A DNA stretch of 22,353 nt. Source: a virus. Position 1 is the stretch's first letter, and every line of letters begins with the position of its first letter. Location: the IMG/VR virus record IMGVR_UViG_3300037189_015050, positions 1-22,353 of that record; one strand, written 5' to 3'. The position numbers and the translations under genes are program-made. This document shows, piece after piece, positions 610 through 20,556 of this stretch. Under the pieces are notes generated by a model, which worked only from the letters and a program-made list of their open reading frames with translations, ran no database searches and was not told the DNA's origin.

Positions 610-1491
610 ATGTCACTTAAAATACGCAGAGGTACCGACGCAGAAAGATTAACAATCACCCCAGCTGAAGGAGAATTAATCTATACTACTGATACCAAAG
701 AGTTATACATTGGAGACGGTAGTACTGTAGGTGGAAATTTAGTAACTTCCGAAGGTAGTGGAGGGGGTAATGGATACACTGGGTCAATTGGTGCTACTGG
801 GTACACTGGATCAATTGGAGCTACTGGTTATACTGGATCTGTACCTTCTGGACCAGCTGGTTATATAGGAAGTTTTAAGGGTCCTTTGTATTCGTATAAT
901 GGAACTGTAGTATATGATGGTTCTACAACTAATAAAATTAGAATCGATAAAATTGTCGGTAGTTCATTTACGGAAGTTAATATTGGAACTTTGACAGAGT
1001 TAAACACATTAAATGTGTATGGTGGACCTCAAAGATGTGTAACATTATATGGTACTGTCAGTGGTACTTATAACATACCAGTTATTGAGATGCGATCATC
1101 TCGAGGAACTATGAGTTCTCCAACACCAATACGTGCAAGTGATATGGCATCTGCATTAAAATCCACTGCCTGGAATGGTCAAGATTATGCGGATATTGGC
1201 GGTGTAATATTTACATCAACTAGTTTAGCAACATCATCAACTTCATCAGGAAAAGTATCTGTGTACTCAGTAGATACTACTGGAAATCCTCATTTCTTTG
1301 ATTTTAACGATAATGGTGATTTATCAGTTGATCGCGGTATTAGGCCAGCTATTTTAACAAGTGCTCCAACAAGTCCTGTTACAGGTACTATATATACAGC
1401 AAACGGCGTTAGTTGGAACCCAGCAAGTAAAGGTGGAAGTAAGCCATATCCTGTATTTTACGACGGTACATCATATAATGCGTTTTATTAA
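610..1491 (+). CDS. Tail fibre / receptor-binding protein with collagen-like repeat
   Basis: A probable virion fibre of 293 residues. Residues 1-45 (LKIRRGT, then AEGELIYTTDTKELYIGDG) match the short N-terminal domain found in Mtd-type and many other phage fibres, which serves to attach the fibre to the virion. Residues 55-88 form a Gly-X-Y tract with the repeated nonapeptide GYTGSIGAT. The rest is rich in Ser, Thr, Gly and beta-forming residues, and the end has a PTSPVTGTIYTANGVSW segment typical of fibre tips. It is short for a T4-like distal fibre, so it may be an accessory or tip fibre. The stop codon overlaps the stop of the facing minus-strand radical SAM gene. It is the last gene with core-like composition before the AT-rich island. 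Fibre assignment is confident; the receptor is unknown. Confidence 0.85.
   Translation: MSLKIRRGTDAERLTITPAEGELIYTTDTKELYIGDGSTVGGNLVTSEGSGGGNGYTGSIGATGYTGSIGATGYTGSVPSGPAGYIGSFKGPLYSYNGTVVYDGSTTNKIRIDKIVGSSFTEVNIGTLTELNTLNVYGGPQRCVTLYGTVSGTYNIPVIEMRSSRGTMSSPTPIRASDMASALKSTAWNGQDYADIGGVIFTSTSLATSSTSSGKVSVYSVDTTGNPHFFDFNDNGDLSVDRGIRPAILTSAPTSPVTGTIYTANGVSWNPASKGGSKPYPVFYDGTSYNAFY
772..840 (+). repeat. 27-bp tandem repeat encoding the collagen-like tract
   Basis: Two full 27-base units (772-798 and 799-825) and a partial third (from 826) encode GYTGSIGAT, GYTGSIGAT, GYTGS. They differ only at a few, mostly third-codon, positions. Copy number of such tracts often varies between related phages by slippage or recombination. 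Confidence 0.85.
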
Positions 1492-2573
1492 AGCCTTTGA
1501 TCTAATTCGCCAAATAGATTAGGATCGTTTACTTGATCAGTTGATGAGTTACAGCAGGTACTTAAACAAGCAAATATTGTTTTTTTCTTGTCTGTAACTT
1601 TCCAACTTTCTTCAATTAATTTAAAAAATTTTCCTTCTAAAATTTCATCCCATCCGTAATTATATAAACAAATTTTATCTTTTCCATAATTATTCCATAT
1701 ATCTAACCATCCGTCGTTAACTTCTTTATGATCGTAAATATATAAAGAACCTGCTATAAAGCAACAAGGAAAGAGTCGTCCTTTACTATCAATATATAAT
1801 GATTTTTCCTTTTTAACAAAACAATGGATTTTTTTTCCAATAGTGTTATCTATAATACCATCTAGTGTAATATTTTCTCTCTTATTCAATAAAACTTTAT
1901 GAACATATTCTTTATTTTCAGGAGGAAGAATTGGAATACCATTAGATCCAATTTTATTCATATTAAACATTTCATCAAACACAAATCTATGACTTTTTTT
2001 TATATTAATAAAAGTAAATCCCATATCTTTTGCCATTTGTTTAGCTTCATCTACTTGATGTTCATTATGTTTAAAAACAATAAATTGCCAATGAGCATTT
2101 CCACCATTAGATAAAAATGCATTAATATTATTCATTAATTTATTCCAATTAACATTGACTCTATATATATGATTAGTATCAGATAATCCATCAATAGCAA
2201 ATTGAACATGTCCGTTTTTTCCGATTGAATGAGCAAGTCTTTTCCAAAATTCAGGAACTTTAAGTCCTCCATTAGTTTCAATCTTAATATAAACATGAGG
2301 AGCTTTTTCTTTTATCCAATCAATTGTTGAAATTAAATTAGGAGCAGCACAGGGATCGCCCATAGTTCCAGCAAACGAAACCCTCTTTATTTTCTTCCAA
2401 ACTTCGTCAGGAATTTGTTGAAAGGCTTTTAATTTTAGATAATCTTGTGTGAACCAACTTCTATCATTATCAAGTGCTTGTCTAGTACACTGCGGGCAAG
2501 CTGCATTACATAAAGAACTGTTTTCTACTTCTAATAACTCAATGTCATATTTAAAAAAACTCATACCTATCAT
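1488..2573 (-). CDS. Radical SAM protein with C-terminal SPASM domain (family A, copy 1)
   Basis: A 361-residue radical SAM enzyme. The SAM-binding [4Fe-4S] motif CxxxCxxC is at C22/C26/C29 (LCNAACPQC). The segment FAGTMGDP near residue 68 stands in for the usual GGE SAM-contact motif, and FAIDGLSDT near 125 fits a barrel strand. A SPASM-like domain follows, with C251, C270-C271 (YIDSKGRLFPCC) and a final group C336/C340/C341, enough to hold auxiliary iron-sulphur clusters. SPASM enzymes often modify peptides or sugars; the substrate here is unknown. It is closely related to the gene at 16901-17989, including LDGLSDT and FKHN.HQ. Its ATG overlaps the stop of the upstream aminotransferase-like gene (ATGA), so the two are translationally coupled. 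An alternative start three codons in is possible. Confidence 0.87.
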   Translation of the reverse strand: MIGMSFFKYDIELLEVENSSLCNAACPQCTRQALDNDRSWFTQDYLKLKAFQQIPDEVWKKIKRVSFAGTMGDPCAAPNLISTIDWIKEKAPHVYIKIETNGGLKVPEFWKRLAHSIGKNGHVQFAIDGLSDTNHIYRVNVNWNKLMNNINAFLSNGGNAHWQFIVFKHNEHQVDEAKQMAKDMGFTFINIKKSHRFVFDEMFNMNKIGSNGIPILPPENKEYVHKVLLNKRENITLDGIIDNTIGKKIHCFVKKEKSLYIDSKGRLFPCCFIAGSLYIYDHKEVNDGWLDIWNNYGKDKICLYNYGWDEILEGKFFKLIEESWKVTDKKKTIFACLSTCCNSSTDQVNDPNLFGELDQRL

Positions 2574-3466
2574 TTACCTACATTTTCTAAGTATCGTATT
2601 AGATTACAAGTACCAACTAATTTATTACCATCCAATGCTACATGTATTGAGGATGTTGGTTTGAGATTAAAATCAGTGCAAATTTTATCATAACGATTAC
2701 TATGTTCATTCCATAAATGATCTATTTCAAGATTATCAATAAAATGATTAGCAATACATATTAACATTGTAGGAATCATCTGATGATCATTCATTATCTT
2801 TATTGAATCAATTGTTCTGTTTCTTTGTAATCTTATTCCTATCCTATTCCATCCTAATCCAAATCCTTTACTAAGACTAAATCCAATACTCTCAATAGAT
2901 GGATGTGAAAAATCAAAATCTATATTTTTAGAAGCAGTAATCCAAGCACAATCAATATGTAATTTACTTCCATTTTCGAAACATTTATCTAGTATATCGT
3001 TCATCTTTGTATGTTTGTTTCCGTTTACAAATGGTAAACTAATTATAATATCTCTATTTTTTAATATATCAGTGTTATCTACTATATGTACAGATGGATA
3101 TAATCGTTGATGATATCTATATTCTCCAGATAAAATCTGAAGTTTATTAACACCATGATACAAATAAAGATTGTCTATATATTGTGTACATCCCAAACAA
3201 ACATCTATATTTGTAAATAATTCAAGATTTTTTAAATTATTTAATTTGCTCGACAGTATTTTTTCTAACATACGTGTTTTAAACAAATCAACAAGATCGT
3301 GTGTACTGTTTTTTTCTAACATAGAATAGTAATTATCTCGAAAATCTTTATTAAAATTTCCATTTATTATATCGTTTATAAGATTTTTAATTTTAGAACT
3401 AAACACAGGGTGTATTCTTTCATATTCTAAAAAAGATTTATCATATGAATTTGGAATTTTAAACAT
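2570..3466 (-). CDS. Compact PLP-dependent aminotransferase-like protein (copy 1)
   Basis: 298 residues with the core of a fold-type I PLP enzyme: a cofactor-binding Asp in LHIDCAW (D172), the Schiff-base lysine in FSLSKGFGLGWNRIG (K200), and the Arg at 208 that follows in aspartate-aminotransferase relatives. The class normally has about 380-420 residues, so part of the small domain is reduced. An N-terminal signature CxGCTxxID (about 90-98) and GEYRYHxRLxP (about 114-124) is shared with the gene at 10319-11182 and probably forms the phosphate-binding turn and substrate pocket. It likely transfers an amino group to a keto acid or keto sugar, but a decarboxylase or lyase is also possible. It is first in a two-gene operon with the radical SAM gene at 1488. 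A CATAAATA box lies 4 bases before its ATG, and there is no Shine-Dalgarno. Confidence 0.72.
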   Translation of the reverse strand: MFKIPNSYDKSFLEYERIHPVFSSKIKNLINDIINGNFNKDFRDNYYSMLEKNSTHDLVDLFKTRMLEKILSSKLNNLKNLELFTNIDVCLGCTQYIDNLYLYHGVNKLQILSGEYRYHQRLYPSVHIVDNTDILKNRDIIISLPFVNGNKHTKMNDILDKCFENGSKLHIDCAWITASKNIDFDFSHPSIESIGFSLSKGFGLGWNRIGIRLQRNRTIDSIKIMNDHQMIPTMLICIANHFIDNLEIDHLWNEHSNRYDKICTDFNLKPTSSIHVALDGNKLVGTCNLIRYLENVGK

Positions 3467-3470
3467 ATCT

Positions 3471-3478
3471 TATTTATG
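3471..3478 (-). promoter_or_regulatory. Late-promoter-like box CATAAATA abutting the start at 3466
   Basis: On the minus strand CATAAATA ends 4 bases before the ATG of the aminotransferase-like gene. No Shine-Dalgarno is visible. A T4-type start 5-7 bases after the box would give a leaderless or nearly leaderless message. It is paired with the plus-strand box at 3495-3502 in the same 40-base divergent gap. Confidence 0.6.
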
Positions 3479-3494
3479 AATTAAAAAGTGCGTA

Positions 3495-3502
3495 TATAAA
3501 TA
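3495..3502 (+). promoter_or_regulatory. Late-promoter box TATAAATA abutting the start at 3507
   Basis: An exact match to the T4 late promoter TATAAATA, ending 4 bases before the ATG of the kinase-fold-like gene, with no Shine-Dalgarno between. The spacing equals that at 8292-8299 and, on the other strand, 3471-3478. Confidence 0.65.
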
Positions 3503-3506
3503 TTCA

Positions 3507-4208
3507 ATGGATATCAACAATTGGCACTTTTATCATAAAATATTAAATGAAACTTTAGAAAGAGAAACAACTCAGATGGTTTACGAACCGAGGATAAACC
3601 AAAAAAAAGATGTTTTTTGTATGAATTTTTGTTATCCCTCTGAATACCAATTAAAGCAAAGAAAAATATATCCAGAATATTACACAGAAGAACTTGTTGA
3701 AAATATGTTTTTTAGAGAAAAAAAATATCTATTACATTGTTCTAAATTTAAATGGGTTCCTGAAATATTAGAAATTAATGAGATTAAAAGACAAATATTT
3801 TTTAAATGGTACAATAATACCTGTAATGAAATACTATATGGAAGAGATAAAAATTTAATTAATATATGTAAAATAAAATATCAAGAAATAATACAAGAAC
3901 AATTAAAAAATCAAATATATAAATTATCAGCATATCCACATTGTTATTATTTAGATAATAATTTAGAAATGAAAACTTTTGATTTCTATGCATGTTGTAC
4001 TGAAGATACTAAATTTATTAAATTAGAAAATATTAAAGGATTACTAGGTGATAGTAGTTATAGATTTTTAGAATGTGAAAAGAACGGATATATTAATTTA
4101 AAATTAATGTTTACAAATACTATGTTAAAATATTCGTTTTGGCCAAATAATTTAACTAAAGAAATCTATGAAAATTTTATAGATAAAAATATTATATCCA
4201 AAAATTAA
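3507..4208 (+). CDS. Kinase-fold-like protein, possibly inactive (copy 1)
   Basis: 233 residues, very rich in Asn, Lys, Ile and Tyr. I see a weak resemblance to the protein-kinase or aminoglycoside-phosphotransferase fold: a helix with conserved Glu/Arg (MFFREKKYL), a hinge-like WVPEILEINEIKRQIFFKW, then a segment in the place of the catalytic loop (YKLSAYPHCYYLDNN) followed by TFDFYACC where a DFG-type metal site would be. The HxD catalytic Asp is not present. The gene at 5645-6334 has the same order of motifs and is a likely paralogue. The role could be regulatory, or substrate binding without phosphotransfer. It is a single gene between divergent and convergent neighbours, and overlaps the 3' end of the gene at 4192-4740 by 17 bases. 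Fold assignment is inference and may be wrong. Confidence 0.4.
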   Translation: MDINNWHFYHKILNETLERETTQMVYEPRINQKKDVFCMNFCYPSEYQLKQRKIYPEYYTEELVENMFFREKKYLLHCSKFKWVPEILEINEIKRQIFFKWYNNTCNEILYGRDKNLINICKIKYQEIIQEQLKNQIYKLSAYPHCYYLDNNLEMKTFDFYACCTEDTKFIKLENIKGLLGDSSYRFLECEKNGYINLKLMFTNTMLKYSFWPNNLTKEIYENFIDKNIISKN

Positions 4209-4740
4209 AAATATATTTTGGAGTTATGCCACAATTTGATCCAGCATGCCATAATTTTCTATTGTTCCATTTAAATACATCACCTATTTGTTGATTATAA
4301 AAACAAGAATCTCCTACAAAAAAAGAATGTCCTGGAGATTGTGGAATTATATGACAATGAAATCTAACGGATTCTTTAGATAAAGTTGCTTCATCGTCTG
4401 TTACATCCCAATGCCATGGAGCCATTTTTCCGGGATTGATTCGACTAATCCATGCATATTCTGGACCATTATTTGTTACTCCTGTCCATTTGATAAACTT
4501 TTTAACTATAGATCTATCAAAATTAATTCCTGGCAAAAACATATCCCATCCAGCAACACCACCGTCGTGGATAGTTTTATACCCTAATCTTTCCCATAAT
4601 ATAGCAACTTCATCTATACCTTCTATATTATCAGTTGCTTTGTGTCTTGGCCCAATATATGCTGGCTCTTGATCTTTTAAAGAATCAACAACTTCATTCC
4701 AATTTATAATTCCGGAACAATTTCCAAAATACTCTATCAT
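4192..4740 (-). CDS. Aspartyl/asparaginyl hydroxylase-like 2-oxoglutarate oxygenase
   Basis: 182 residues forming one double-stranded beta-helix domain. The iron ligands of the HxD...H triad are visible: H110 and D112 in MAPWHWD, and H165 in LWHAGSN. RFHCHI (R126, H128) matches the RxH strand seen in the AspH (aspartyl/asparaginyl beta-hydroxylase) family. The usual Arg that binds 2-oxoglutarate after the distal His is replaced by Lys (K175) or lies elsewhere. Such enzymes hydroxylate amino-acid side chains or small molecules in the cytoplasm using Fe(II), O2 and 2-oxoglutarate. It is second in a minus-strand pair after the gene at 4783-5589, with its own strong Shine-Dalgarno. The substrate is unknown. 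Confidence 0.72.
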   Translation of the reverse strand: MIEYFGNCSGIINWNEVVDSLKDQEPAYIGPRHKATDNIEGIDEVAILWERLGYKTIHDGGVAGWDMFLPGINFDRSIVKKFIKWTGVTNNGPEYAWISRINPGKMAPWHWDVTDDEATLSKESVRFHCHIIPQSPGHSFFVGDSCFYNQQIGDVFKWNNRKLWHAGSNCGITPKYIFNFWI

Positions 4741-4782: not shown

Positions 4783-5589
4783 TTAATAACAATCTAAATG
4801 ATCTATCCCTAATTTCTTCCTAAATTCATCTGAAAATTTTCCATCTATGCGTAAGCCATAACTTTGTTCTATTATTTTATCTCCACCGTGCCAATCTTGA
4901 TCATTCCACCAAGCTGCTCGTGTATTGATATAGATTTTATTTTTCTTTTCAGGATCCCATAAGTAAAAAGGTTTCTTGGTATTAGGACGAATATGTATAA
5001 ATTCATTACGATGAGAATAATACTCTTGATCCTTACCTTTTGACCCATCTAGATCACGATGTTCAAACGGAATACCATCGGCTTCGCAATGAAAAAAGAT
5101 AACTCTACCAATATTATTAAATATATTAGAAGTTATCATATTTTCTATCCATTTAACTGTATTTGGAAAATACTTTGCTTCTTCTGTTAATTTCCTCGGT
5201 GAGGTTCTATCGTCCCAACTCCCTTGGTCCCAAAGAAAATAATAAATGTAAGGATCATATGCTCCCATTGCCATTTTAATATATCGAGTAAATTTATTTC
5301 TAATCCTAAAATCATGGAAATCTTTATAAAGATCAATTCCACCTTGTTTTATTGGATCATCATCAGGCAAATCTAAAAACTCATCTATAGCTTTATATAT
5401 AGGTTTCCATGATACTAGATAACTCATGTCTTTTAAAGAAAATCCAGGTTTCATCCATGTTCCTTCTTTAGCAAATTCTCTAGCTTCCGCAAAACCTCGA
5501 ATAATTTCTGGTTGTAACTTATTAAATGTATTCATATCAATATATGATTCTAAATCTAAATAAGGTTTATTATTAATTCCTTTAATCAT
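4783..5589 (-). CDS. 2-oxoglutarate/Fe(II) oxygenase-like protein, larger form
   Basis: 268 residues. The C-terminal half has the signs of a double-stranded beta-helix oxygenase: HRD at H177/D179 in PFEHRDLDG, EFIHIRP as the next core strand, H234 in DQDWHGGD as the distal iron ligand, and R247 in YGLRIDGKF, in the right place for a 2-oxoglutarate carboxylate clamp. The first 160 residues are a helical N-terminal part of unknown role. It is first in a two-gene minus-strand unit. A Shine-Dalgarno GGAG (5603-5600) sits 10 bases before the ATG. It faces the plus-strand operon at 5645 across a 55-base divergent gap. The fold is supported by the spacing of His, Asp and Arg; the reaction and substrate are unknown. 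Confidence 0.62.
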   Translation of the reverse strand: MIKGINNKPYLDLESYIDMNTFNKLQPEIIRGFAEAREFAKEGTWMKPGFSLKDMSYLVSWKPIYKAIDEFLDLPDDDPIKQGGIDLYKDFHDFRIRNKFTRYIKMAMGAYDPYIYYFLWDQGSWDDRTSPRKLTEEAKYFPNTVKWIENMITSNIFNNIGRVIFFHCEADGIPFEHRDLDGSKGKDQEYYSHRNEFIHIRPNTKKPFYLWDPEKKNKIYINTRAAWWNDQDWHGGDKIIEQSYGLRIDGKFSDEFRKKLGIDHLDCY

Positions 5590-5644: not shown

Positions 5645-6334
5645 ATGATTTTTAATTATTATTATAATAATCTTCCGGAACACGGTCTTTGTCGCAATAA
5701 TTTAATTTACACAAGCTTAATATCATCTGATCAAAAAACATTTTGTCAATGGTACTATAACGATACTGAGTATCACAAAGGACAAAATCAAGTAATTGAT
5801 CCAGAAAAAATGGAAGAAAAATGGGAACGAGAAGTAAAATTTCTAACATTATTAAGTAATACCAACCTAGATATAATTCCAACTATACTAGATATAGATT
5901 ATAAGAATAAAAAAATATTTTTAGAAATTGATGGAGTTGATTTTTGGCAAAGAAGTTTAGATAAAAATAATTGCTCTTTTGATGAGATACTACCAGACTG
6001 GCAAGATCAAATGTTAGAAATGATTAAAATTTATCGTAAGTTAAAAATCTATAAATATTCTATGCATCCAAGTAGTTATTTTTTAGTAAATAAAAAATTA
6101 AAAAGTATTAATTATTTTTTTACATACAATCACGACGAAAATCAAATTAGTATAAAAGATGTCGAAAGTCATATATATAGCACAAGACAGGAAGAACTAA
6201 AGAAATATACAGAAAAACTTGGAATAGTTTGGGATAAACCTCAAAGTTTCGATATATTACAAAAATTATGTTGGGAGAGTTTCAGAACAAATTATCCAAA
6301 AGATTTTATAGAGAAAGTATTATGTATAAAATAG
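5645..6334 (+). CDS. Kinase-fold-like protein, possibly inactive (copy 2)
   Basis: 229 residues with the same motif order as the gene at 3507-4208: an early strand pair, a helix with WEREVKFLTLL, an IIPTILDIDYKNKKIFLEIDG hinge-like segment, then YKYSMHPSSYFLVN in the catalytic-loop position and SINYFFTYN in the DFG position. Both the catalytic Asp and the metal-binding DFG Asp are missing, so if this is a kinase fold it is probably a pseudokinase or uses other residues. The ATG at 5645 has a good Shine-Dalgarno. It is first of a three-gene plus-strand operon and overlaps the next start by 13 bases. The function is unknown; the kinase comparison rests only on pattern and on the paralogue, whose FDF is closer to the canonical motif. 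Confidence 0.4.
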   Translation: MIFNYYYNNLPEHGLCRNNLIYTSLISSDQKTFCQWYYNDTEYHKGQNQVIDPEKMEEKWEREVKFLTLLSNTNLDIIPTILDIDYKNKKIFLEIDGVDFWQRSLDKNNCSFDEILPDWQDQMLEMIKIYRKLKIYKYSMHPSSYFLVNKKLKSINYFFTYNHDENQISIKDVESHIYSTRQEELKKYTEKLGIVWDKPQSFDILQKLCWESFRTNYPKDFIEKVLCIK

Positions 6335-6888
6335 TTCCATTTACTGACGATTTAGATCTTTCTAATTTTTATTATGAAGCAAGTATTAGAGGATTTACTA
6401 ATAATTCTTCTAAAAAATCATTAGTTGATTGTTTTATAAACGAAAGAGAGAAACAAGTTTTTATTTTATATTTTAATGATATTGCTATTGGTAGTGTAGG
6501 TGCTCATAGTTTTGATGATGTTATGGGCAAAAATAGTTATAGAATAGCTGCTCGTACATGCGTATTTACAAATTACTTAGATAAAGATTACAACAAAGCA
6601 TTACGTACTATAAGTGTAATAACTAAACATCAAAATCCAACAGCTCAATTTCTAATACCTGCTTGCTTAAATTGGGTACCAGAAAATTCAAAACTTTATA
6701 TTACATCTAATGAAAGTTTGGTTGGGACACAAAGATTAGTACATAAGATTTTTGGACCTGCAATGGAAAAACAAAATGTAATGAAACGCATAAAAGAAGT
6801 ATTTTATAGAGGGTCAATTCAAACAGTATGGGAATTCTTTCCTAAAGAATTTTTAATACAATTAAACAATAACAAGAGATGGCAATGA
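6322..6888 (+). CDS. Possible GNAT-type N-acyltransferase
   Basis: 188 residues from the ATG at 6322. This start overlaps the previous gene by 13 bases and fits better than an upstream in-frame ATG at 6268, which would extend deep into that gene. The pattern resembles GNAT folds: a helical start, a strand pair QVFILYFNDIAIGSVGAHSF, a following strand YRIAARTCVFTNYL, then a late strand and helix KLYITSNESLVGTQRLVHKIF where GNATs often have an Asn-containing pantetheine contact. No clear Q/RxxGxG/A acetyl-CoA loop is seen, so assignment is tentative. If right, it would acylate an amine, which would fit the aminotransferase-like genes in the island. It is coupled to the next gene through an ATGA overlap. 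Confidence 0.4.
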   Translation: MYKIVPFTDDLDLSNFYYEASIRGFTNNSSKKSLVDCFINEREKQVFILYFNDIAIGSVGAHSFDDVMGKNSYRIAARTCVFTNYLDKDYNKALRTISVITKHQNPTAQFLIPACLNWVPENSKLYITSNESLVGTQRLVHKIFGPAMEKQNVMKRIKEVFYRGSIQTVWEFFPKEFLIQLNNNKRWQ

Positions 6889-7625: not shown

Positions 7626-8262
7626 TTTTATATATTTCATTAAGAAATTTTTTTTCTAAATTAAAACTTATATTTGTATTTTCATAAACAAAATTGTTAA
7701 TAATGCCTTGCTTGTTAGCTTGATTTAACCAAGGACTTATCTTAACATCAAATGCATATCGAACTTCATCATGATTGTTTAAATTTGGAAAAATTTTAAT
7801 TTTTATAGGATCATTGATAATATTTGGTAATAATAATTTTCTAACTACTAATTGTATTCTAGGATAATTTCCAAAATTTGTTGCCGTATGCAAAATTCCC
7901 GCATTCATATCATACCAAATTTGATCACATTTAAGTTGATGCATTATTTTATTATCTAAATCAATTAAATAACATTGTTCACCTTGTAAATTTAAATGGT
8001 ATCTATCATCTATATCAGCATGACTAACATAACAAGTTTCAGGTTCTAGTTTTATAATCCTTGCTTCACCAATATCTATAGGTAAAGTATTTAATATTTC
8101 TTCCCAACATGTTCCTTTTAACTCTTTTTTAATTTCCCAAGAATCATAAAAAAATCTCCCGGTAGGAAAATTTAATATTAATTTAGAATCAATTTTAGAT
8201 AAATTTTTTAAAATTTTATCAAATAAAGATAATTCAATATTTAAACTAGTTTTATACAACAT
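7582..8262 (-). CDS. AspH/cupin-like 2-oxoglutarate oxygenase
   Basis: 226 residues from the ATG at 8262. A TTG six codons upstream (8280) is in frame but less likely, because a late-promoter-like box sits between the two. The iron triad is clear: H81/D83 in YVSHADIDD and H125 in ILHTATNFG, with R87/H89 in RYHLNLQG and R135 in YPRIQLVVR as the likely 2-oxoglutarate contact. This spacing is that of aspartyl/asparaginyl beta-hydroxylase-like enzymes. The C-terminal 80 residues add a region of unknown function. It is a single gene facing away from the radical SAM operon at 8304. The substrate is unknown. Confidence 0.7.
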   Translation of the reverse strand: MLYKTSLNIELSLFDKILKNLSKIDSKLILNFPTGRFFYDSWEIKKELKGTCWEEILNTLPIDIGEARIIKLEPETCYVSHADIDDRYHLNLQGEQCYLIDLDNKIMHQLKCDQIWYDMNAGILHTATNFGNYPRIQLVVRKLLLPNIINDPIKIKIFPNLNNHDEVRYAFDVKISPWLNQANKQGIINNFVYENTNISFNLEKKFLNEIYKIIPQSLKIEHEYHY

Positions 8263-8267
8263 GTAGA

Positions 8268-8275: not shown

Positions 8276-8291
8276 ACCAATATTTTACTAC

Positions 8292-8299: not shown

Positions 8300-8303
8300 T
8301 AAA

Positions 8304-14066: not shown

Positions 14067-14964
14067 AATAGTTAGTAGATGGAATCATCAAGGTGCAATT
14101 AAAATAGAATGGAATCTAGGAAAACGTTGTAATCTAGATTGCGCTTATTGCCCAGAATATATCCACGATAATCACAGTCCACATACTGACATAGAAATAC
14201 TTAAACATACAGTGGCGGTTTTAAATGCATTAGACAAGCCTGTGCGTCTAAGTCTTACAGGAGGCGAGCCTAGCGTACATCCTCAGATAGAAGAACTGCT
14301 AGAAACTATAAATGCTGCGGATAATATTGTTTGGTTGAGCATGACTACTAATGCTACACGTACAGGAAAATGGTATGTAGATCAATCAAGATACATCGAT
14401 CAATATGTTTTTAGTTTACACTATGAGAAGAATAGTAAAACATCATTTGAGCATATAGTAGCATTCCATTCTGCTAAAACTGATACAAAAATACTAGTCC
14501 ATATCATGGCGCATCACAAATATATGGATGAAGTAAAAGGTGGAGTGTTTTCTTGTAAGGCGTTAGAAATTCCATATGTCATTCGGAGAATACGATGGAC
14601 AGAAGGAAATCATGATTTGTTTAATGATATGAGATACGATCATTATGACTTACAGTGGATTAAGAGATCTACTAAAACAGCAGAACCAAACTGTATAATA
14701 GACGATGAAGAATTATTACATGCCAACGATATAATTAAATCCCATATGAACCAATTTAGCGGTTGGACGTGTAATGCTGGTATAGAAAGTCTAATGATTA
14801 ATTGGGATGGAGAAGTACATAGAGCAACATGTCGCGTTGGAGGAAGTTTAGGAAATATATACAATGATGTTTTTATAGTTCCTAAAGATCCAATCATATG
14901 TACAAGAAATTGGTGTACGTGTGAAGCAGATATACCGCTAACTAAATTAAATCTAGCCCGTTAA
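14059..14964 (+). CDS. Radical SAM protein with C-terminal twitch-like Cys domain (family C, copy 1)
   Basis: 301 residues. The radical SAM motif is KRCNLDCAYCPEY with C24/C28/C31, and LTGGEPSVHP (67-76) is the SAM-contact GGE loop. The barrel follows to about residue 210. The C-terminal 65 residues carry an auxiliary cluster domain: GWTC (C238), C258, and CTRNWCTC (C281, C286, C288), the arrangement called twitch or half-SPASM. The genes at 18599-19573 and 19561-20556 share this pattern. It is last gene of the plus-strand operon, and its 3' end overlaps the facing SDR-like gene by 23 bases. It looks somewhat less AT-rich than its neighbours. The substrate is unknown. Confidence 0.86.
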   Translation: MYKIVSRWNHQGAIKIEWNLGKRCNLDCAYCPEYIHDNHSPHTDIEILKHTVAVLNALDKPVRLSLTGGEPSVHPQIEELLETINAADNIVWLSMTTNATRTGKWYVDQSRYIDQYVFSLHYEKNSKTSFEHIVAFHSAKTDTKILVHIMAHHKYMDEVKGGVFSCKALEIPYVIRRIRWTEGNHDLFNDMRYDHYDLQWIKRSTKTAEPNCIIDDEELLHANDIIKSHMNQFSGWTCNAGIESLMINWDGEVHRATCRVGGSLGNIYNDVFIVPKDPIICTRNWCTCEADIPLTKLNLAR

Positions 14965-15499
14965 TTCCAAATTCATCTTCTATTAATCTTAAATTAATAT
15001 CAGTTAATTTAAGATTAAAATCAATAGAATGAAATGTTGGATTTTTTAACCAAAATTCACATATATCAGTAATATCTTTATACGAACATCCAAAATCCGG
15101 AGTGGAATTTTCTGTCATTGCTACATTTAAAATTAAAAGTTTGGTAATTGAATGAAAAGATAGTTTTTTATTTAAATCAATTAAATGATTTTTATTAGTA
15201 CAATATTCGTGTTTACTTGATACATACTCATGATAATATCCAGCAACTGATCCTAAAGATATTATAAATGGGATCTTATTTGATAAATCGTTTAAAAATT
15301 TAATTTGAAAATCTTTATGATAAGCATTATTAACAAATAAATCACATCCTAACGCATCATTAATTATTTTTTGGTAATTTTCTTCAATATCAGTTCCTGT
15401 ACTTTTTGAAATTCCAATTACATCAAACCCTATCTCTTTAAATCTATTATAGATAGATCTGCCAATGCCTGAAGTATGTCCTGTTATTAAACATCTCAT
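14942..15499 (-). CDS. Short-chain dehydrogenase/reductase (SDR), compact
   Basis: 185 residues of an NAD(P)-dependent SDR. The nucleotide-binding TGxxxGIG is at 6-13 (TGHTSGIG), NNAY at 57-60 replaces the NNAG motif, the catalytic Ser is in SLGS (81-84), and YxxxK is Y99/K103. Classical SDRs have about 250 residues; this form has a short substrate-binding part after YxxxK, so it probably acts on a small substrate. It would reduce a ketone or oxidise an alcohol, a usual step before or after amino transfer in sugar or small-molecule synthesis. It is last gene of the long minus-strand operon, with ATGA coupling to the radical SAM gene upstream. Confidence 0.82.
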   Translation of the reverse strand: MRCLITGHTSGIGRSIYNRFKEIGFDVIGISKSTGTDIEENYQKIINDALGCDLFVNNAYHKDFQIKFLNDLSNKIPFIISLGSVAGYYHEYVSSKHEYCTNKNHLIDLNKKLSFHSITKLLILNVAMTENSTPDFGCSYKDITDICEFWLKNPTFHSIDFNLKLTDINLRLIEDEFGINGLDLI

Positions 15500-16908
15500 A
15501 TTAAATTACTTAACTCCGGAAAAACTTTAGAAAAAGATATATTTCGTATAGAGTCTAAATTATTTACATATTCTTTAAAATCAGGTAAAAGATGTGTATG
15601 ATCTTCTGCCATAACAAATTTTAAAATTCCTTCCCATCGACTCCACCCATACGGATTATCTTTCCAAAAATTATCATCCTGTCTATAATTTTCCCATAAC
15701 CATTTTTTAAATTCAGAAAAATCTTTTTCTATTTGTTCTTTTTCAGTTTGAGGTAATAGTCTAGCACTTAAAAATGTCGGAATATACAATAGATGTAAAT
15801 TAATAATACCTCCACCTGTTTCATATTCATCAAGAGAAAATTTGTTTATTTTTTTAAATCCTTGGATTAATTTCCATTTAGCGAAATCAATGATATGTTT
15901 AATATTAAAAATTTGTACAGCACACGCTATAGCACAATGAATATTATCTGGAGAATTATCCATTAACCACAAACTACGTTCAATATCTTTCCAATTAGTT
16001 GGATAACGAATATAGTTATTTCTTTCCATAAGAGCATCTATGCTAAAAGCATATCTTACTTGTTTAAACTGGCTCCATATATTAATTATATCGTCATTGA
16101 CAAATATACCATTACTGTTATATCTTAGACTAATATTCTTAGCATATCCTCTTTTAATAATTTCATCTAAAAACCTTCTATGTTCTTTGATCATCAAAGG
16201 TTCGCCTCCGGCAAAATATAACTGAGTAATATTAGGAATTTGTTCAAATACATCATTCCAAAATTCTGGTTTTTCATACCATGTATTATTGAATGCTTGT
16301 TTATCAAATCCTACCTGTTTTAAAATTTGAGAACTTTTGGTTTTTTCTATCAACTTATCATAATCTTGTAACCAACGACTACTATCATGCGGACTACACA
16401 TAACACATTTAAGATTACAAGTATGACCTAAACGCAAATCTAGATATCGAACTACCGGAGGAACAGTTCCATCGCTATTAGTGTCATTAATAAGTTTAGA
16501 AAAATCTAATCCATTTCGATTCCATTCGTATATCTCCCATAATCTTTTACTTACAACACCATTAGATTCTTCTTCAAAGCATTTTGTACAACTAGCAGGA
16601 ATTTTACTATCTAACATAGTTAGACGTACATCTCGCATATACTGATTATTAAATGCTTCGAGAGGTGTTTCTCGACCAAAATTAGCAGGAACTCCATTTT
16701 CTTTTTTTACTAAACCTACAGTATGGTCTCCGGTTACTGCACCACTAGCATTTGTAACACAGCATAATCTAGCATCACCGTTAGGCCTAGTAGCAAGATG
16801 GATCCAAGGTAATACACAAAAACTAGAAGATCCTGTTTTTTGTATTATCTGTCTTTGTCCTTGACCGATTCTTGTTAACTCTGATTGAATCCAGAATTCC
16901 TTACTCAT
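15496..16908 (-). CDS. Radical SAM protein with N-terminal SPASM/twitch-like domain (family B, copy 2)
   Basis: 470 residues. As in the gene at 11878-13146, the auxiliary Cys domain comes first: C31, C49-C50 (HLATRPNGDARLCC), C107 and C110 (SCTKCFEEESNG). The radical SAM core starts at GHTCNLKCVMCSPHDSSRW (C164/C168/C171). YFAGGEPLM is the SAM-contact loop and FSIDALMERNNYIR matches the paralogue's SIDGIGESYEHIR. It is longer than copy 1, with an insertion between the two Cys groups (about residues 55-80). The C-terminal WKDNPYGWSRWEG region is additional. Coupled to its neighbours: an 8-base overlap upstream and ATGA downstream. Confidence 0.86.
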   Translation of the reverse strand: MSKEFWIQSELTRIGQGQRQIIQKTGSSSFCVLPWIHLATRPNGDARLCCVTNASGAVTGDHTVGLVKKENGVPANFGRETPLEAFNNQYMRDVRLTMLDSKIPASCTKCFEEESNGVVSKRLWEIYEWNRNGLDFSKLINDTNSDGTVPPVVRYLDLRLGHTCNLKCVMCSPHDSSRWLQDYDKLIEKTKSSQILKQVGFDKQAFNNTWYEKPEFWNDVFEQIPNITQLYFAGGEPLMIKEHRRFLDEIIKRGYAKNISLRYNSNGIFVNDDIINIWSQFKQVRYAFSIDALMERNNYIRYPTNWKDIERSLWLMDNSPDNIHCAIACAVQIFNIKHIIDFAKWKLIQGFKKINKFSLDEYETGGGIINLHLLYIPTFLSARLLPQTEKEQIEKDFSEFKKWLWENYRQDDNFWKDNPYGWSRWEGILKFVMAEDHTHLLPDFKEYVNNLDSIRNISFSKVFPELSNLI

Positions 16909-17989
16909 TAAAATTATACCTATTTGTAAATTGGTGTCTTGGTTGACTAAATTTTTTCTCTGCTATTCCACACGTACGAGCGCATGTAATCGATTTTTTC
17001 TCTTTCCATATTTGATCCCATATAGATTGCCATTTATTATCATTTATTATATCCTGTAATGGTCGACTTATAGAATTGATATATTCTTTTCCGCCTAGCT
17101 CATTTAGCATTTCTAAATGTTCTTTATCAATTTCTTTTCTAATTAGATAAGCGCCATCATCTAAATTATGATATGTAAAAGGTGAAGCACCTAACCAGCA
17201 ACAAGGATATACATCGCCTAAATGATCTATATAAACAGATTTATTTTTTTTTACTACACAATCAATATCACTATTTTTTACTATATCTTTATAATTGTCA
17301 ATAATACTCTGATCTACATATGTTAATTCAACATTATCAGCTGGTTCTAAAAAGTATTTAAAATTTCCATTTTTATCTCTCACGCGAAGTCTAGGTTCGC
17401 CAATAAATCTTGTACTATTTTTTACTTGGAATGTATTAAATCCTATTTTTTTTGCCATCTCCTTAGCTTGACTAATTTGATGTTGATTATGTTTAAAAGT
17501 TATAAATGCCCATTCTGCATTACCTTTTTCTGATATAAAAGCTGAAGCATTTTCTATTATTTTTTCAAAGTTAGTTCCAATCCTATATATAGAATGTGTA
17601 TCAGAAAGTCCATCTAATGCAAATATAACATTGTGATTTTTTGGTAATTTTAGTGCTAACAATTTCCACCATTGCGGTGTTCGCATACTTCCATTAGTAT
17701 GAATATTCACATATATTTCTGGGTTAATTAAATTAATATGTTCAACCATCTTTAAAAGATCATCATTTATTATAGGATCTCCAAGATTACCACAAAATAT
17801 AATTCCTTTTAATTGGATTAAAACATGATTATTTAATATAAGTTTAAACTCATCAATATTCCAAGATCGGATTTGATATCGATTGTTTATTCCACTACCG
17901 TTAACATTTCGAATACACATTGGACAAGATGCTTGGCAATTGCTTGTAATTTCTAAATGTACCGAATCTAATTGATCAAATCTAAACAT
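16901..17989 (-). CDS. Radical SAM protein with C-terminal SPASM domain (family A, copy 2)
   Basis: 362 residues and a paralogue of the gene at 1488-2573. The radical SAM motif is SNCQASCPMC (C18/C22/C25), FCGNLGDP replaces GGE, and FALDGLSDTHSIYR and FKHNQHQ are shared with copy 1. The SPASM region has DCVVKKNKSVYIDHLGDVYPCC and a last group TCARTCG, so auxiliary clusters are likely. The start overlaps the stop of the methyltransferase gene by one base (TAATG). The two copies lie at opposite ends of the island with different neighbours (aminotransferase-like there, methyltransferase here), which suggests duplication followed by separate use. The substrate is unknown. Confidence 0.87.
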   Translation of the reverse strand: MFRFDQLDSVHLEITSNCQASCPMCIRNVNGSGINNRYQIRSWNIDEFKLILNNHVLIQLKGIIFCGNLGDPIINDDLLKMVEHINLINPEIYVNIHTNGSMRTPQWWKLLALKLPKNHNVIFALDGLSDTHSIYRIGTNFEKIIENASAFISEKGNAEWAFITFKHNQHQISQAKEMAKKIGFNTFQVKNSTRFIGEPRLRVRDKNGNFKYFLEPADNVELTYVDQSIIDNYKDIVKNSDIDCVVKKNKSVYIDHLGDVYPCCWLGASPFTYHNLDDGAYLIRKEIDKEHLEMLNELGGKEYINSISRPLQDIINDNKWQSIWDQIWKEKKSITCARTCGIAEKKFSQPRHQFTNRYNFNE

Positions 17990-18594
17990 TATTTTTTACT
18001 TCCAATTATCATGAATCTATTATATTTAGGTAATTCCATTATTGATGAGGACCAAACTTTTATATTACTTTGATCGATAAACTCTGTTATATCATTAGCA
18101 CATCTAATATGTTCGTCTAATTCAAAATAATTGTTACTTTGCAATACAATAATAGACTTAGATGGAATTTTTTTTAACCATTTGTTATAAGTATCTTGTG
18201 TAATATGTTCACAACTTGTATTAATCACTATGTCCGGAAAATATTCATATTGATAATCATCCATACTACAAGTAATTGCTTTAAATTTTCCTAACATATC
18301 TTCAATCTTATTCATTGTTCTCGATATGTCTTCGCAAGTTGGATCAATATCAACTGATATAATATTGTTTGTTTTTATACTAGATTGAAATAATAAACTT
18401 GCTAAAACTCCATTCCACCCGCCATGAATTACTATATTATTATCAATAGAAGCAACATGCACCATTAGATTTTCTATTAACCAAATCTTACTTTTAATCT
18501 GACCTTTCCAAAAACTTTCCAATGTTCTATTCGTGTTATCGCTATTGCGAATTGCATCCATCCAGAATAAAATATGTTCTATATCAATTTTCAT
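17989..18594 (-). CDS. Class I SAM-dependent methyltransferase-like protein
   Basis: 201 residues. The Rossmann core is visible: VIHGGWNGVLASLLF (55-69) in the place of the glycine-rich motif I, ISVDIDP (79-85) with an acidic residue for the SAM ribose, FKAITCSMDDY as motif II, and PDIVINTSCEHI (120-131) followed by IIVLQSNNYFE as motif III. This NTSCEH...LQSN pattern is one I associate with small methyltransferase-like proteins of marine T4-like phages. The N-terminal 45 residues are helical. The methyl acceptor is unknown; no DNA-methylase catalytic motif (DPPY or PCQ) is seen, so DNA modification is unlikely. It lies between two radical SAM genes, with a 4-base gap upstream and a 1-base overlap downstream. 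Confidence 0.72.
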   Translation of the reverse strand: MKIDIEHILFWMDAIRNSDNTNRTLESFWKGQIKSKIWLIENLMVHVASIDNNIVIHGGWNGVLASLLFQSSIKTNNIISVDIDPTCEDISRTMNKIEDMLGKFKAITCSMDDYQYEYFPDIVINTSCEHITQDTYNKWLKKIPSKSIIVLQSNNYFELDEHIRCANDITEFIDQSNIKVWSSSIMELPKYNRFMIIGSKK

Positions 18595-18598: not shown

Positions 18599-19573
18599 TT
18601 AAATAATAACTTTTTTCTTATTCATGTTTGCTTCAAATGCGCACCAACAACTGTCTTTTTTACAAACTGTAGAAATTATTTTAGGTTGAAATTTTTCAAT
18701 AAAATTTATATCATATATATTTAATATTTCTTCTATGTTGTACAAAGAATTATTACAAATACCAGATATATTACCATTATGCTTGATTGATATCCAATTT
18801 ACTCCTAAACTACATTCCCATCCTAAAAATTTATTTAATCTTTCAAATATTAATGTGTTATCTTGAATTTTATATGATTTATTTTTTTCATCAATCACCG
18901 TTACTTTACTTCTATATTGTTTATTAACTTTAAAAAACCAAAATGGGTTAGAAGATCGTATTCTATAATCTTTTATTAATTTTCTTTGTTTATCTGTATA
19001 TGTTATATTTTTATCTATAATTTCTTTACAAATTATAGACCATCTTCTTTTACTCTTTTTATAGTACTCAATTGATTTTAAACAGTTATCCCAATCATTA
19101 GCATCCATCATTATCATTATGTTAACAAATACATTTGATTCATATATTAAATCAGCAAGATCTCTAGTATGAACTATATTTGTAAACTGTTGATGATGGC
19201 TTATCGATATTTGATCTAAATATAGAACTGCTTCTTTCCACCAATTGAGATTTTTTGATCCGTTCGTTGTTAAAGAGAATATACAATCATATCGATCTTT
19301 AAAATATTTTATAAATGGAATAAAATATTTCCAGTGTGTCGATTCGCCGCCTAAAATATTAAATTCAAATTTTCTTTTATTAGTATTCTTAATATAGTAA
19401 TCAACTAAATGACTTAGATTTTTTACTAACAATTCATAGTTTGGCCATTTATATATAGCAGAATTTGATCCTGGATAACAATATTGACATTGGAAATTGC
19501 AAATATCTCCAATACTTACTTCTATTATAAAATATTCTTCTGGATAATTTTGTTTAACTTCTATAATTTCCAT
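18599..19573 (-). CDS. Radical SAM protein with C-terminal twitch-like Cys domain (family C, copy 2)
   Basis: 324 residues from the ATG at 19573, giving a 13-base overlap with the upstream gene; an ATG at 19606 would overlap by 46 bases and add 11 unconserved residues. The radical SAM motif is GDICNFQCQYCYPG (C25/C29/C32), and FNILGGESTHW holds the SAM-contact GGE. The C-terminal domain has GWEC, then ICNNS, then CKKDSCWC, the same five-Cys pattern as the gene at 14059-14964. Very AT-rich. It is probably made together with the related gene just upstream, and may form a pair or act in sequence with it. Confidence 0.85.
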   Translation of the reverse strand: MEIIEVKQNYPEEYFIIEVSIGDICNFQCQYCYPGSNSAIYKWPNYELLVKNLSHLVDYYIKNTNKRKFEFNILGGESTHWKYFIPFIKYFKDRYDCIFSLTTNGSKNLNWWKEAVLYLDQISISHHQQFTNIVHTRDLADLIYESNVFVNIMIMMDANDWDNCLKSIEYYKKSKRRWSIICKEIIDKNITYTDKQRKLIKDYRIRSSNPFWFFKVNKQYRSKVTVIDEKNKSYKIQDNTLIFERLNKFLGWECSLGVNWISIKHNGNISGICNNSLYNIEEILNIYDINFIEKFQPKIISTVCKKDSCWCAFEANMNKKKVII

Positions 19574-20556
19574 TTTGGAACTTTCGAATCTGCTGAGCTT
19601 ATACAATTATTTGTTATGCAAGTTTGTGGAGAATTAAAAATTTTAAATCCATCAGTTATTGTACCCAATAACATATCAGAACAACTGTAACTACGTTTAA
19701 CTTCATTACCTCGAATTATAACACTTTGATATCCGCTATTGCAATTCCATCCTTTAAATTTATTAAATCCAAAAGAATTAAATCTTTCAGCTTGGTCAAA
19801 ATCATATATATTTCCTTTAAAATCTTTTAATTCTATCTGATAGATATTATCTTGTTTAAAACTCTGTGGAAATCCTGTCTGCATAATGTCTATCATTTCA
19901 CTTGTATAACCTACAACTATCTCTGTTGCTGTGCTATTACTTTGAGGTTTTAAAGTTACTGGAATACCGCGTTCATGAAATCTTTTACAACGATCATAAT
20001 ATTCATAAAACCTATCAGGAACCATAACCTGATTAATAGTTACATATATTTTATTCTCCATAAGAAATAATAACTTTTCACTAAATTCTATTTCATTAGC
20101 AAATTCTGCATGAAAGCTAGCAGTAACACTTGCTCTATCTAAAAGAGATAACTTACTAACTAATCTCTTCCACCATTTTAATCCCGGACTACAATTACTA
20201 GTCATATGAAAACTCTGATATTTAGGATCAGTATCATTAGCATAGTATTCTATTAGATTTAGGAAATCTTTATAAGCAGTCGGTTCACCGCCACTAAAAC
20301 TGAAATGAAAATCTGTAAATCCGTTTTGTTGTGCTTGTCTTTTAATCTCATCGATAGTTTTTTTATAAAGATCTAAACTATAATGATCAAGTTTATCACT
20401 ACGGGCATAAGGCCAACAATATGAACAGTTATAGTTACAGAATCTCCCAAGTATCCAACTAACTGAGAATAAAGGATTATTTAACATAGTTTTTTGACCA
20501 AAACTAGTTATATCATTCCAGGGTATATTTTGAAAATTAGAGTTTGTTAAATTCAT
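19561..20556 (-). CDS. Radical SAM protein with C-terminal twitch-like domain (family C, copy 3)
   Basis: 331 residues. The radical SAM motif is GRFCNYNCSYCWPY (C40/C44/C47), with FSFSGGEPTAYKDF as the SAM-contact loop. The C-terminal domain has GWNC, then YSCSDM and CITNNCISSAD. The last Cys of the group seen in the other two family C proteins (CxC) is Ser here, so the auxiliary cluster may be missing a ligand or use another. The ATG lies inside the 3' end of the repeat-protein gene, overlapping by 20 bases. It is the second gene of the minus-strand operon visible from the right edge. Confidence 0.85.
   Translation of the reverse strand: MNLTNSNFQNIPWNDITSFGQKTMLNNPLFSVSWILGRFCNYNCSYCWPYARSDKLDHYSLDLYKKTIDEIKRQAQQNGFTDFHFSFSGGEPTAYKDFLNLIEYYANDTDPKYQSFHMTSNCSPGLKWWKRLVSKLSLLDRASVTASFHAEFANEIEFSEKLLFLMENKIYVTINQVMVPDRFYEYYDRCKRFHERGIPVTLKPQSNSTATEIVVGYTSEMIDIMQTGFPQSFKQDNIYQIELKDFKGNIYDFDQAERFNSFGFNKFKGWNCNSGYQSVIIRGNEVKRSYSCSDMLLGTITDGFKIFNSPQTCITNNCISSADSKVPKWKL

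Follow-up and report, generated by a model that had tools for sequence, protein, structure and literature searches.

A recurrent set of radical-SAM, QueC-like and oxygenase genes in uncultured bacterial viruses

An IMG/VR contig of 22,353 bases, analysed over its whole length and called the window here, has a coding density of 99% and carries eight radical-SAM (rSAM) genes, five HxD...H oxygenase-like genes, two genes for PLP-fold proteins and one for a QueC-like PP-loop ATPase, adjoined by an Mtd_N tail fibre gene (Table 1). The genes, which looked co-expressed in a preliminary description of the sequence, lie in seven strand blocks and do not form one operon. At the right end, the units of rep lie at residues 11, 108, 205, 302 and 427; this gene may be truncated by the contig end, and tblastn found no relatives of it in phages. 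The window as a whole had no megablast match among cultured phages.

Table 1. Features of the window.
Feature	Positions	Strand	Assignment	Support
ThyX, 3' part	1..561	+	left flank, phage backbone	PF02511 E 1.8e-23; 75% identical ThyX at equivalent place in G021
Tail fibre	610..1491	+	Mtd_N domain, collagen-like GYTGSIGAT repeats	PF18454 E 1.9e-12; tandem repeat 771-839
rSAM1	1488..2573	-	SPASM-type	PF04055 above cut-off; phrog_21308
PLP1	2570..3466	-	fold-type-I PLP protein, PLP2 paralogue	aligned with PLP2, 48% identity, SLSK lysine kept
Promoter gap	3467..3506		divergent	NATAAATA motif 12 nt before each ATG: CATAAATA for PLP1, TATAAATA for u3507
u3507	3507..4208	+	recurrent in related islands	28/47 PP-loop loci
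oxy4192	4192..4740	-	AspH-like oxygenase by motif (HWD...H)	37/47 loci; itself without Pfam match
u4783	4783..5589	-	putative 2OG-type oxygenase (EHRD...DWHGG...R)	33/47 loci
u5645	5645..6334	+		23/47 loci
u6268	6268..6888	+	GNAT-like by reading only	13/47 loci
oxy6879	6879..7625	+	putative oxygenase (HxD...H)	11/47 loci
oxy7582	7582..8262	-	AspH-type Fe/2OG oxygenase, invariant core gene	47/47 loci; PDB 'Beta-hydroxylase' 7v4f E 1.4e-16
Promoter gap	8263..8303		divergent	AATAAATA 13 nt before oxy7582 ATG; TATAAATA 12 nt before rSAM2 ATG
rSAM2	8304..9755	+	class-B-like, related to B12-rSAM methylases, without DxHxxG	PF04055; PhpK/B12-rSAM models E 6e-11; motif check
oxy9757	9757..10317	+	putative oxygenase, rare	1/47 loci
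PLP2	10319..11182	+	fold-type-I PLP enzyme	AlphaFold2 pLDDT 90.6; 31/47 loci
PP-loop	11169..11894	+	QueC-like ATPase with C-terminal CxxCxxC, core gene	predicted structure pLDDT 89; 401 viral relatives
rSAM3	11821..13146	+	N-terminal twitch rSAM, core gene	NF033640 305.4 bits; 47/47 loci
u13143	13143..14066	+		9/47 loci
rSAM4	14059..14964	+	core gene	PF04055; 47/47 loci
SDR-like	14942..15499	-	short SDR-like protein	adh_short E 7.5e-4, under cut-off
rSAM5	15496..16908	-	N-terminal twitch rSAM, core gene	NF033640 381.1 bits; 124 viral relatives
rSAM6	16901..17989	-	SPASM-type, core gene	phrog_21308; 25% identity to a CP220 rSAM
MT	17989..18594	-	methyltransferase-like by motif only (IxGGWxGVLAS...DIDP), recurrent	35/47 loci; family alignment
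rSAM7	18599..19606	-	rSAM	PF04055; 28/47 loci
rSAM8	19561..20556	-	rSAM; adjoins tRNA-like RNA in relatives	PF04055 E 6.6e-16; 35/47 loci
rep	20537..22303	-	tandem ~97-residue units (FWVLAPECKLL...), GT-A-like domain by DGD motif only	291-base period x3.4

The rSAM assignments were based on a match to PF04055 above its curated cut-off of 29.5 bits together with a CxxxCxxC motif. All eight proteins passed, and none of the genes contains an internal stop, in agreement with the preliminary description. CxxxCxxC is kept in 638 of 643 distinct members of these families. The two twitch proteins, rSAM3 and rSAM5, also exceed the curated cut-off of 170 bits for NF033640 (N_Twi_rSAM). Prokaryotic viperin-type defence was considered and rejected; the best window score against NF038283 was 39.8 bits versus a cut-off of 180, and the PADLOC pVip models, which matched the domain only in part, gave no more than 44 bits, likewise far under cut-off. 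Searches of phage records by tblastn returned no relatives of rSAM8; rSAM5 has only distant relatives there.

All five oxygenase-like proteins contain HxD...H, as previously noted. The AspH-type assignment is firm for oxy7582 alone, in whose family the triad was found in 72 of 72 sequences, and the other four are labelled by motif. Pfam Asp_Arg_Hydrox was matched only by island oxygenases other than oxy4192, and u4783 is strongly conserved (68-83% identity over 18 loci). The preliminary labels for the two PLP enzymes stood: the PLP2 model aligned with ACC synthase 1ynu (VIA Z 18.6, rmsd 4.1, 269 aligned), recovering fold type I. Among its remaining labels, the SDR assignment is weakly supported, whereas the methyltransferase and GT-like ones are motif readings to which Pfam, PHROG and NCBIfam lend no support; MT likewise had no match in the profile libraries or the PDB.

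Structure prediction also bore out the QueC-like assignment of the PP-loop protein. Its model aligned with QueC 3bl5 (Z 14.6, rmsd 3.9, 180 aligned), Foldseek gave an E value of 3e-6 and a TM score of 0.66 by target, and fold matches to QueC, Cap9 and QatC had Z scores of 12.6-14.6. As modelled, the protein shares the overall fold of these three, along with their SGGxDS, HPFxxxxK and C...CxxCxxC elements; SGGxDS and the Zn motif C(x)nCxxCxxC are invariant columns in the alignment of the PP-loop family. The substrate motifs of QueC are YPDC and VPxRN (PMC13329287). When aligned with E. coli QueC, the PP-loop protein has GM-ER in place of the CDG-binding YPDC and VSGDN in place of VPxRN. We therefore rejected canonical QueC on the basis of these replacements and of failure at the PF06508 cut-off, which no protein exceeded in 21 records including the window (11 of 14 control genomes were positive). 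No relatives of the PP-loop protein or PLP2 were found by tblastn in all phage records, CP220 included. A PP-loop profile run against 84,980 genomes gave 190 pattern matches and no true relative, although it consisted of two short patterns that distant relatives could escape. PDB sequence profiles gave no convincing match for the PP-loop, PLP, u4783 or MT proteins.

We found rSAM genes, 3-15 per record, in 37 of 37 related viral records tested. The PP-loop protein was used to recruit 47 loci, each at least 20 kb long, for an assessment of co-occurrence. In every one of them the PP-loop gene is accompanied by the AspH-type oxygenase, rSAM3, rSAM4, rSAM5 and rSAM6, a figure inflated by shared ancestry since the loci were recruited from related phages via their own genes. 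The usual order is oxygenase(-), PLP(+), PP-loop(+), rSAM3(+), rSAM4(+), rSAM5(-), rSAM6(-), MT(-) and rSAM8(-). The core set, i.e. at least four rSAM enzymes, a QueC-like enzyme and an iron oxygenase, was present in hundreds of uncultured bacterial viruses, and because the same families recur in so many viral contigs, their grouping is more than chance. Median dN/dS values across families were 0.047-0.136. These results are the opposite of rare co-occurrence and of absent purifying selection, either of which would have spoken against the phage-encoded multi-enzyme modification pathway suggested earlier; that suggestion is well supported. We conclude that the core set is held intact by selection. 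Allele distances correlated (0.45-0.75) within PLP2/PP-loop/rSAM3 and mostly within PLP2/rSAM4/rSAM8/MT, and were low elsewhere; this test did not show co-inheritance of the entire core. Low correlation combined with a complete set indicates that genes are swapped while the set is kept whole. One relative, G011, has most of the island and lacks the PP-loop gene, so the PP-loop step is not universal. Variable enzymes in relatives include a sulfotransferase, an amidinotransferase-like protein, an SGNH hydrolase and a tryptophan halogenase (E 1.8e-99). The core contains no classical sugar-nucleotide or GT2 genes.

Four window genes are headed by a T4-type late-promoter motif. In long relatives NATAAATA is about 25-fold enriched ahead of ORFs, with a peak at 12-13 nt. 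Of 10 genes selected from those that it heads outside the island, 8 had matches to families of virion structural proteins. The motif stands 10-16 nt ahead of oxy7582 in 42 of 72 upstream regions. It covers some island units only, the exact motif being absent from the gap at 5590-5644. Since this conserved motif lies 13 nt upstream of ATG 8262, the start of oxy7582 is most likely that codon and not TTG 8280. Because island units, like virion genes, have the motif 12-13 nt ahead of their first gene, the island is probably expressed late in infection.

The phage context of the island was confirmed, as was the neighbouring tail fibre gene, which has GATAAATA 34 nt upstream of its ATG. Adjacency to a fibre was borne out in part: of the 14 records in which Mtd_N was matched, 7 have the fibre no more than 6 kb from the island, and the other half have it far away. 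Where their type could be read, the island viruses are T4-like phages; two long relatives are T4-like by gp23, and size reaches 353 kb. Some 12 kb past the island, G021 has a giant gene of virion structural type. The host recognition cluster of pelagimyophages is bounded by vrlC and the neck gene gp14; the neck gene PF11649, sought to place the island in the T4 map, was matched in no record.

Related islands also contain an anticodon-less tRNA-like RNA with a CCA end and covarying acceptor and T stems; by reading, it has a leucine-tRNA-like D-arm and A73. It is divergent from rSAM8, the nearest island gene in 86 of 90 loci, at a distance of 34-76 nt. The RNA is absent from the window, and no confident instance was seen in G021 or G011. 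Its pattern was detected in 26 of 64 rSAM8 upstream regions, a count that is too low by method. Small 'VGFEPT' ORFs were considered as antisense of ordinary tRNAs and rejected, as ARAGORN found none; these ORFs overlap the tRNA-like element. The RNA could serve as an anticodon-nuclease decoy or a regulatory RNA.

As the set is selected, probably late and often fibre-adjoining, the phages most likely make a chemical decoration. We tentatively favour, at somewhat less than an even chance, a single late pathway, specific to phages, in which a small group is built or tailored and then attached covalently to a macromolecule, the likeliest being a virion surface protein, for example the adjoining tail fibre, or a host envelope polymer that new phages must pass. 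The rSAM enzymes, four of which are always present, and the AspH-type oxygenases would act on an amino-acid- or sugar-like precursor by functionalising its unactivated C-H bonds. Transamination or elimination would fall to the PLP enzymes, and the QueC-like enzyme would adenylate a carboxylate and then form an amide bond. Methyltransferase-like and SDR-like enzymes, and in relatives the variable enzymes named above, would diversify the product.

The next candidate, an unlikely one, is that infection is accompanied by secretion of a small molecule, either an antibiotic or a signal. The halogenase, sulfotransferase and amidinotransferase-like proteins of relatives are of the tailoring type, and such a product has been proposed for a cyanophage cluster with a halogenase and 2OG oxygenases (PMC7824862). 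Against this, no PKS/NRPS-type scaffold gene was recognised, no membrane exporter was apparent among the window proteins by hydropathy, and the promoter motifs are late. Hypermodification of DNA nucleobases, in which QueC-like and rSAM enzymes would extend a genome-protecting 7-deazaguanine base, is distinctly improbable. A QueD-type gene occurs in 14 of 21 relatives; G021, G011 and G028 also have FolE, a QueE-like rSAM and a DSGGFQ (DpdA-like) gene, and with no PF06508 QueC above cut-off the QueC-like step is missing there. However, these genes lie far from the island, and G011 has FolE, QueD, QueE and the DpdA-like gene yet no island PP-loop. Replacement of YPDC in the PP-loop protein, late-type promoters ill-suited to DNA-precursor enzymes, and thymidylate-synthase-family genes that are mostly absent also argue against it.

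There is a slim chance of RiPP-like maturation, with twitch/SPASM enzymes cross-linking or modifying a phage peptide or protein. The twitch type of rSAM3/5 and the likeness of rSAM1/6 to SPASM maturases speak for it. However, the 47 islands share no conserved small precursor ORF, though one may lie elsewhere in the genome, and the most widespread cluster of small ORFs, present in 9 loci, overlaps the tRNA-like RNA. That RNA, with its CCA end, covarying stems, D-arm, A73 and position beside rSAM8, might instead carry an amino acid for island enzymes to modify and pass on; its absence from the window and from more than half of rSAM8 upstream regions by pattern, together with its alternative roles, makes such an aminoacyl-carrier pathway very unlikely. 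It is equally improbable that auxiliary metabolic genes with no pathway in common were loosely gathered in a hypervariable region linked to fibres. Such regions are known for their hypervariability (PMC7029224), the accessory genes are variable, and several core-gene allele distances are uncorrelated; against this, the six-gene core is invariant in 47 of 47 loci with conserved order.

Returning to the surface decoration, a bolder version is doubtful: a phage-only pathway would fix a new hypermodified group to the virion or host surface via a QueC-like amide ligase, with the tRNA-like RNA, paired with an rSAM enzyme, acting as amino-acid carrier in many members. If the favoured pathway is real, lytic phages would maintain a dedicated oxidative biosynthesis of several steps and run it late in infection. 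The fixed core of four rSAM enzymes, the oxygenase and the QueC-like enzyme, for which no cellular counterpart was found here, is a defined six-gene set open to expression and assay. The QueC fold was lately found in bacterial anti-phage immunity, and Cap9, whose protein deazaguanylation joins CDG to a glycine at the N-terminus, belongs to type IV CBASS; the island would extend this fold to the phage side.

To our knowledge, phage rSAM enzymes are rare, mostly one per phage. The rSAM density of the window is unusual and has precedent (PMC2853527, PMC7029224). The earlier statement that it is far beyond known phages was overstated, as Campylobacter phages CP220/CPt10 have 11-12 rSAM genes (PMC2853527). 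Those phages are T4-like, and CP220 has five rSAM genes, an amidinotransferase gene and two NDP-sugar-transferase-like genes in a single run, with a tail fibre gene about 10 kb away. However, its rSAM match to rSAM6 is only 25% identical, and tblastn found in it no relative of PP-loop or PLP2 and no match to the amidinotransferase-like protein of island relatives. The host recognition cluster of pelagimyophages is hypervariable, fibre-linked and carries rSAM cassettes, and the freshwater genomes of that study are reported to be without rSAM genes (PMC7029224). Like the island, this cluster and the cultured pelagiphage Mosig have AspH oxygenases, aminotransferases, methyltransferases, GNAT and MoaA-like rSAM genes near fibres. 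In Mosig a redox island of similar kind, which includes sugar-type genes, is flanked by fibres and VrlC; this phage differs in having three annotated MoaA-like genes, and PP-loop and rSAM8 were not found in phage records. Cyanophage capsule/secondary-metabolite clusters, proposed to decorate polysaccharide or produce a metabolite, also occur in large T4-like phages with tailoring enzymes (halogenase, 2OG oxygenases, carbamoyltransferase), whereas no rSAM or PP-loop core is seen in the available part of the account (PMC7824862). The phage 9g-type 7-deazaguanine cluster holds FolE, QueD, QueE, QueC and DpdA together; none of these genes is in the window, and the FolE, QueD, QueE and DpdA-like genes of some relatives are scattered elsewhere without a canonical QueC. 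Within the QueC family, the island PP-loop protein differs in being part of a putative biosynthetic set and in falling below the PF06508 cut-off. We found no paper describing the island core in the openly licensed literature. Because the multi-rSAM modules of CP220 and pelagimyophages were noted earlier, the island is not the first of its kind; it is a new, far more widespread variant of multi-rSAM phage modules.

Relatives of the island were sought with two of its genes. A search of viral contigs with the radical SAM (rSAM) gene rSAM5 recovered 124 relatives with identities up to 85%, and all 37 records examined whole contained between 3 and 15 rSAM genes. The profile of the QueC-like PP-loop ATPase recovered 401 relatives in viral contigs and, at the sensitivity of that profile search, none among 84,980 cellular genomes. 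Records recruited by rSAM5 contained a PP-loop match at E < 1e-100 in 22 of 35 cases, and a weak match in five more. The AspH-type hydroxylase relative oxy7582, rSAM3, rSAM4, rSAM5 and rSAM6 were each present in 47 of 47 PP-loop loci of at least 20 kb, a set that includes near-identical contigs and thus fewer than 47 independent cases. In the same loci we found the AspH-like gene oxy4192 (37/47), rSAM8 and the methyltransferase-like gene (35/47 each), the ORF u4783 (33/47) and PLP2 (31/47). Gene order was mostly kept; four loci (L209, L214, L164 and L160) were rearranged with the set still whole.

The catalytic motifs of these families were retained: CxxxCxxC in 638 of 643 distinct rSAM family sequences, SGGxDS in 81 of 83 PP-loop sequences, the PLP lysine motif in 59 of 62, and the oxygenase motif in all 72 sequences of oxy7582. 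Median dN/dS was 0.047–0.136 across all 18 families tested, some of which had one to three usable pairs only. Allele distances were correlated inside sub-blocks, with no correlation over the core as a whole. We infer that island genes are swapped while the set remains complete, a pattern that would favor functional dependence over simple co-inheritance.

The window is the whole IMG/VR record of 22,353 bases. Over 1488–22303 the coding share was 99.1%, and the 23 genes of this stretch fall into seven strand blocks. The eight rSAM genes named in the preliminary description were borne out, as eight proteins exceeded the Pfam radical-SAM cut-off and internal stops were absent; the HxD...H motif was likewise present in five proteins, as claimed for the oxygenase-like genes. 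Library support for its SDR label was weak, and the methyltransferase and glycosyltransferase labels had little or no such support. NF033640, an N-terminal-twitch rSAM family, takes in rSAM3 and rSAM5, and phrog_21308 is common to rSAM1 and rSAM6. rSAM2 is similar to B12-dependent class B methylases, yet lacks DxHxxG; rSAM4, rSAM7 and rSAM8 are MoaA/viperin-like, none reaching an equivalog cut-off. The GTG start of rSAM3 at 11821 would give a 74-base overlap with the PP-loop gene, which ends at 11894. As the NF033640 alignment begins at residue 24, translation of rSAM3 likely starts downstream of this GTG.

The predicted model of the PP-loop protein (pLDDT 89) matched QueC best (3bl5; Z 14.6, rmsd 3.9 Å, 180 residues), followed by TilS-like 1ni5 and Cap9 9nto (Z 13.9) and then by QatC 9y02 (12.7). 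Other PP-loop enzymes scored no more than about 2 Z units away from these matches, so the reaction cannot be read from the fold. In an alignment with E. coli QueC, the P-loop, the PxxxxxK segment and the zinc finger were kept, whereas YPDC was changed to GM-ER and VPxRN to VSGDN. The YPDC and VPxRN residues of QueC are tied to 7-deazaguanine binding (PMC13329287, PMC13279940). Since these residues are replaced, we conclude that the protein is QueC-like by fold and is not a QueC. The PLP2 model (pLDDT 90.6) was a fold-type-I PLP enzyme with many chains tied at Z 17.6–18.6, so its chemistry could be that of a transaminase, lyase or oxidase.

The window and the related 145-kb viral record G021 share the ThyX–fiber–island junction. 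T4-type gp23 was found in G021 and in the 353-kb record G011, and in none of the remaining 16 records tested, many being fragments. The G021 capsid protein shared 79% identity with its counterpart in Sinorhizobium phage Phosso and 72% with the one in PA5oct. An Mtd_N fiber lay at most 6 kb from the island in the window, G003, G015, G021, G028, G030 and G038. In six long contigs the GC content of the island was 2–7 points lower than that of the rest.

The motif NATAAATA, the consensus core of T4 late promoters, preceded about 10% of the ORFs of long relatives versus 0.4% expected. Its distance to the ATG showed a sharp peak at 12–13 nt and a broad class at 25–42 nt. Eight of 10 motif-headed genes chosen for a check encoded virion structural proteins (baseplate wedge, tail tube, tail, tail spike and other structural). 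In the window, the motif was 12 or 13 nt upstream of PLP1, u3507, oxy7582 and rSAM2, and among 72 distinct regions upstream of oxy7582 in relatives, 42 had it ahead of the gene. The sharp spacing was seen in the window, G021, G011, G003, G028, G015 and G030. Given the usual distance from a late-promoter element to the transcription start, this spacing predicts that one class of late mRNAs of these phages would be leaderless.

Locations of features in the window, in related viral records (G) and in viral loci (L)
Feature	Location	Basis
ThyX and Mtd_N tail fiber	window, left end	profile match
Divergent gaps with NATAAATA, 40–41 nt each	window 3467-3506 and 8263-8303	sequence
Tandem-repeat gene rep	window 20537-22303	
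tRNA-like element (examples, with others)	L174:20556-20667, L164:6525-6634, L027:2922-3032, L191:19836-19941	
Tryptophan-halogenase-family gene	L082:2788-4290	PF04820, E 1.8e-99
Sulfotransferase and APS-kinase-like genes	L189:12574-13188, L157:19894-20682	PF03567 (sulfotransferase)
FolE, QueE-like and DSGGFQ (DpdA-like) genes	G021 7.5-15 kb; G011 162-197 kb; G028 12-21 and 66 kb	

Related islands carried a 106–119 nt element on the strand opposite to rSAM8, 34–76 nt from its start codon. This anticodon-less tRNA-like element (55 distinct sequences, 101 loci) combines a CCA-bearing acceptor stem of 7 bp with a canonical T-arm and a long variable arm; the anticodon loop is replaced by a larger structured arm, often with a GNRA-capped hairpin. 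Covariation supported the acceptor, T and variable stems, both sides having changed in 7 of 19 pairs. ARAGORN and Rfam at gathering thresholds did not detect the element; permissive Rfam matched it to tRNA at 24–30 bits. Among 49 loci that were recruited solely through a short DNA pattern and afterwards filtered for the structure, 35 had island-type rSAM genes in the fetched stretch. The element was absent from the window, where rep takes its place, and had no confident match in G021 or G011. The rep protein contains tandem units of about 97 residues (291-base period), and shorter relatives adjoin rSAM8 in G021 and G011.

The reading that fits best, which we hold tentatively, is that the island may direct covalent decoration of the virion or envelope, which would vary under selection. 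It would account for the probable late expression, the frequent fiber neighborhood, the lack of a recognizable exporter or scaffold synthase, and a fixed oxidative core combined with variable tailoring genes (halogenase, sulfotransferase, APS-kinase-like, SGNH hydrolases). The halogenase-family gene lies on an island contig, and its cluster occurred in 6 loci. The sulfotransferase and APS-kinase-like genes close to islands suggest that some members have sulfated products. DNA modification by the island is less likely than such decoration, because these phages have their 7-deazaguanine genes away from it and G011 has such genes without the island PP-loop gene. QueD was additionally found in the G011 and G028 regions containing FolE, and PF06508 QueC in none of G021, G011 and G028. 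Judging from gene content, these three phages probably carry out 7-deazaguanine DNA modification without the canonical QueC step.

Two unannotated single-cell virus fragments (MH319724 and MH319727, Marine virus AG-345-D19) contain an amidinotransferase-like gene resembling that of island contigs, and one also has a twitch rSAM relative. The T4-like phages CP220 and CPt10 have 11–12 rSAM genes, and a five-rSAM segment was termed an interchangeable module (PMC2853527). Pelagimyophages are reported to carry rSAM cassettes inside the host recognition cluster (PMC7029224), and capsule decoration or a halogenated metabolite was proposed for a cyanophage cluster (PMC7824862). In view of these precedents, multi-rSAM phage islands as a kind are already known; in the literature searched, no description was found of the conserved core of QueC-like, AspH and four rSAM genes, of how widely it occurs or of its promoter signature.
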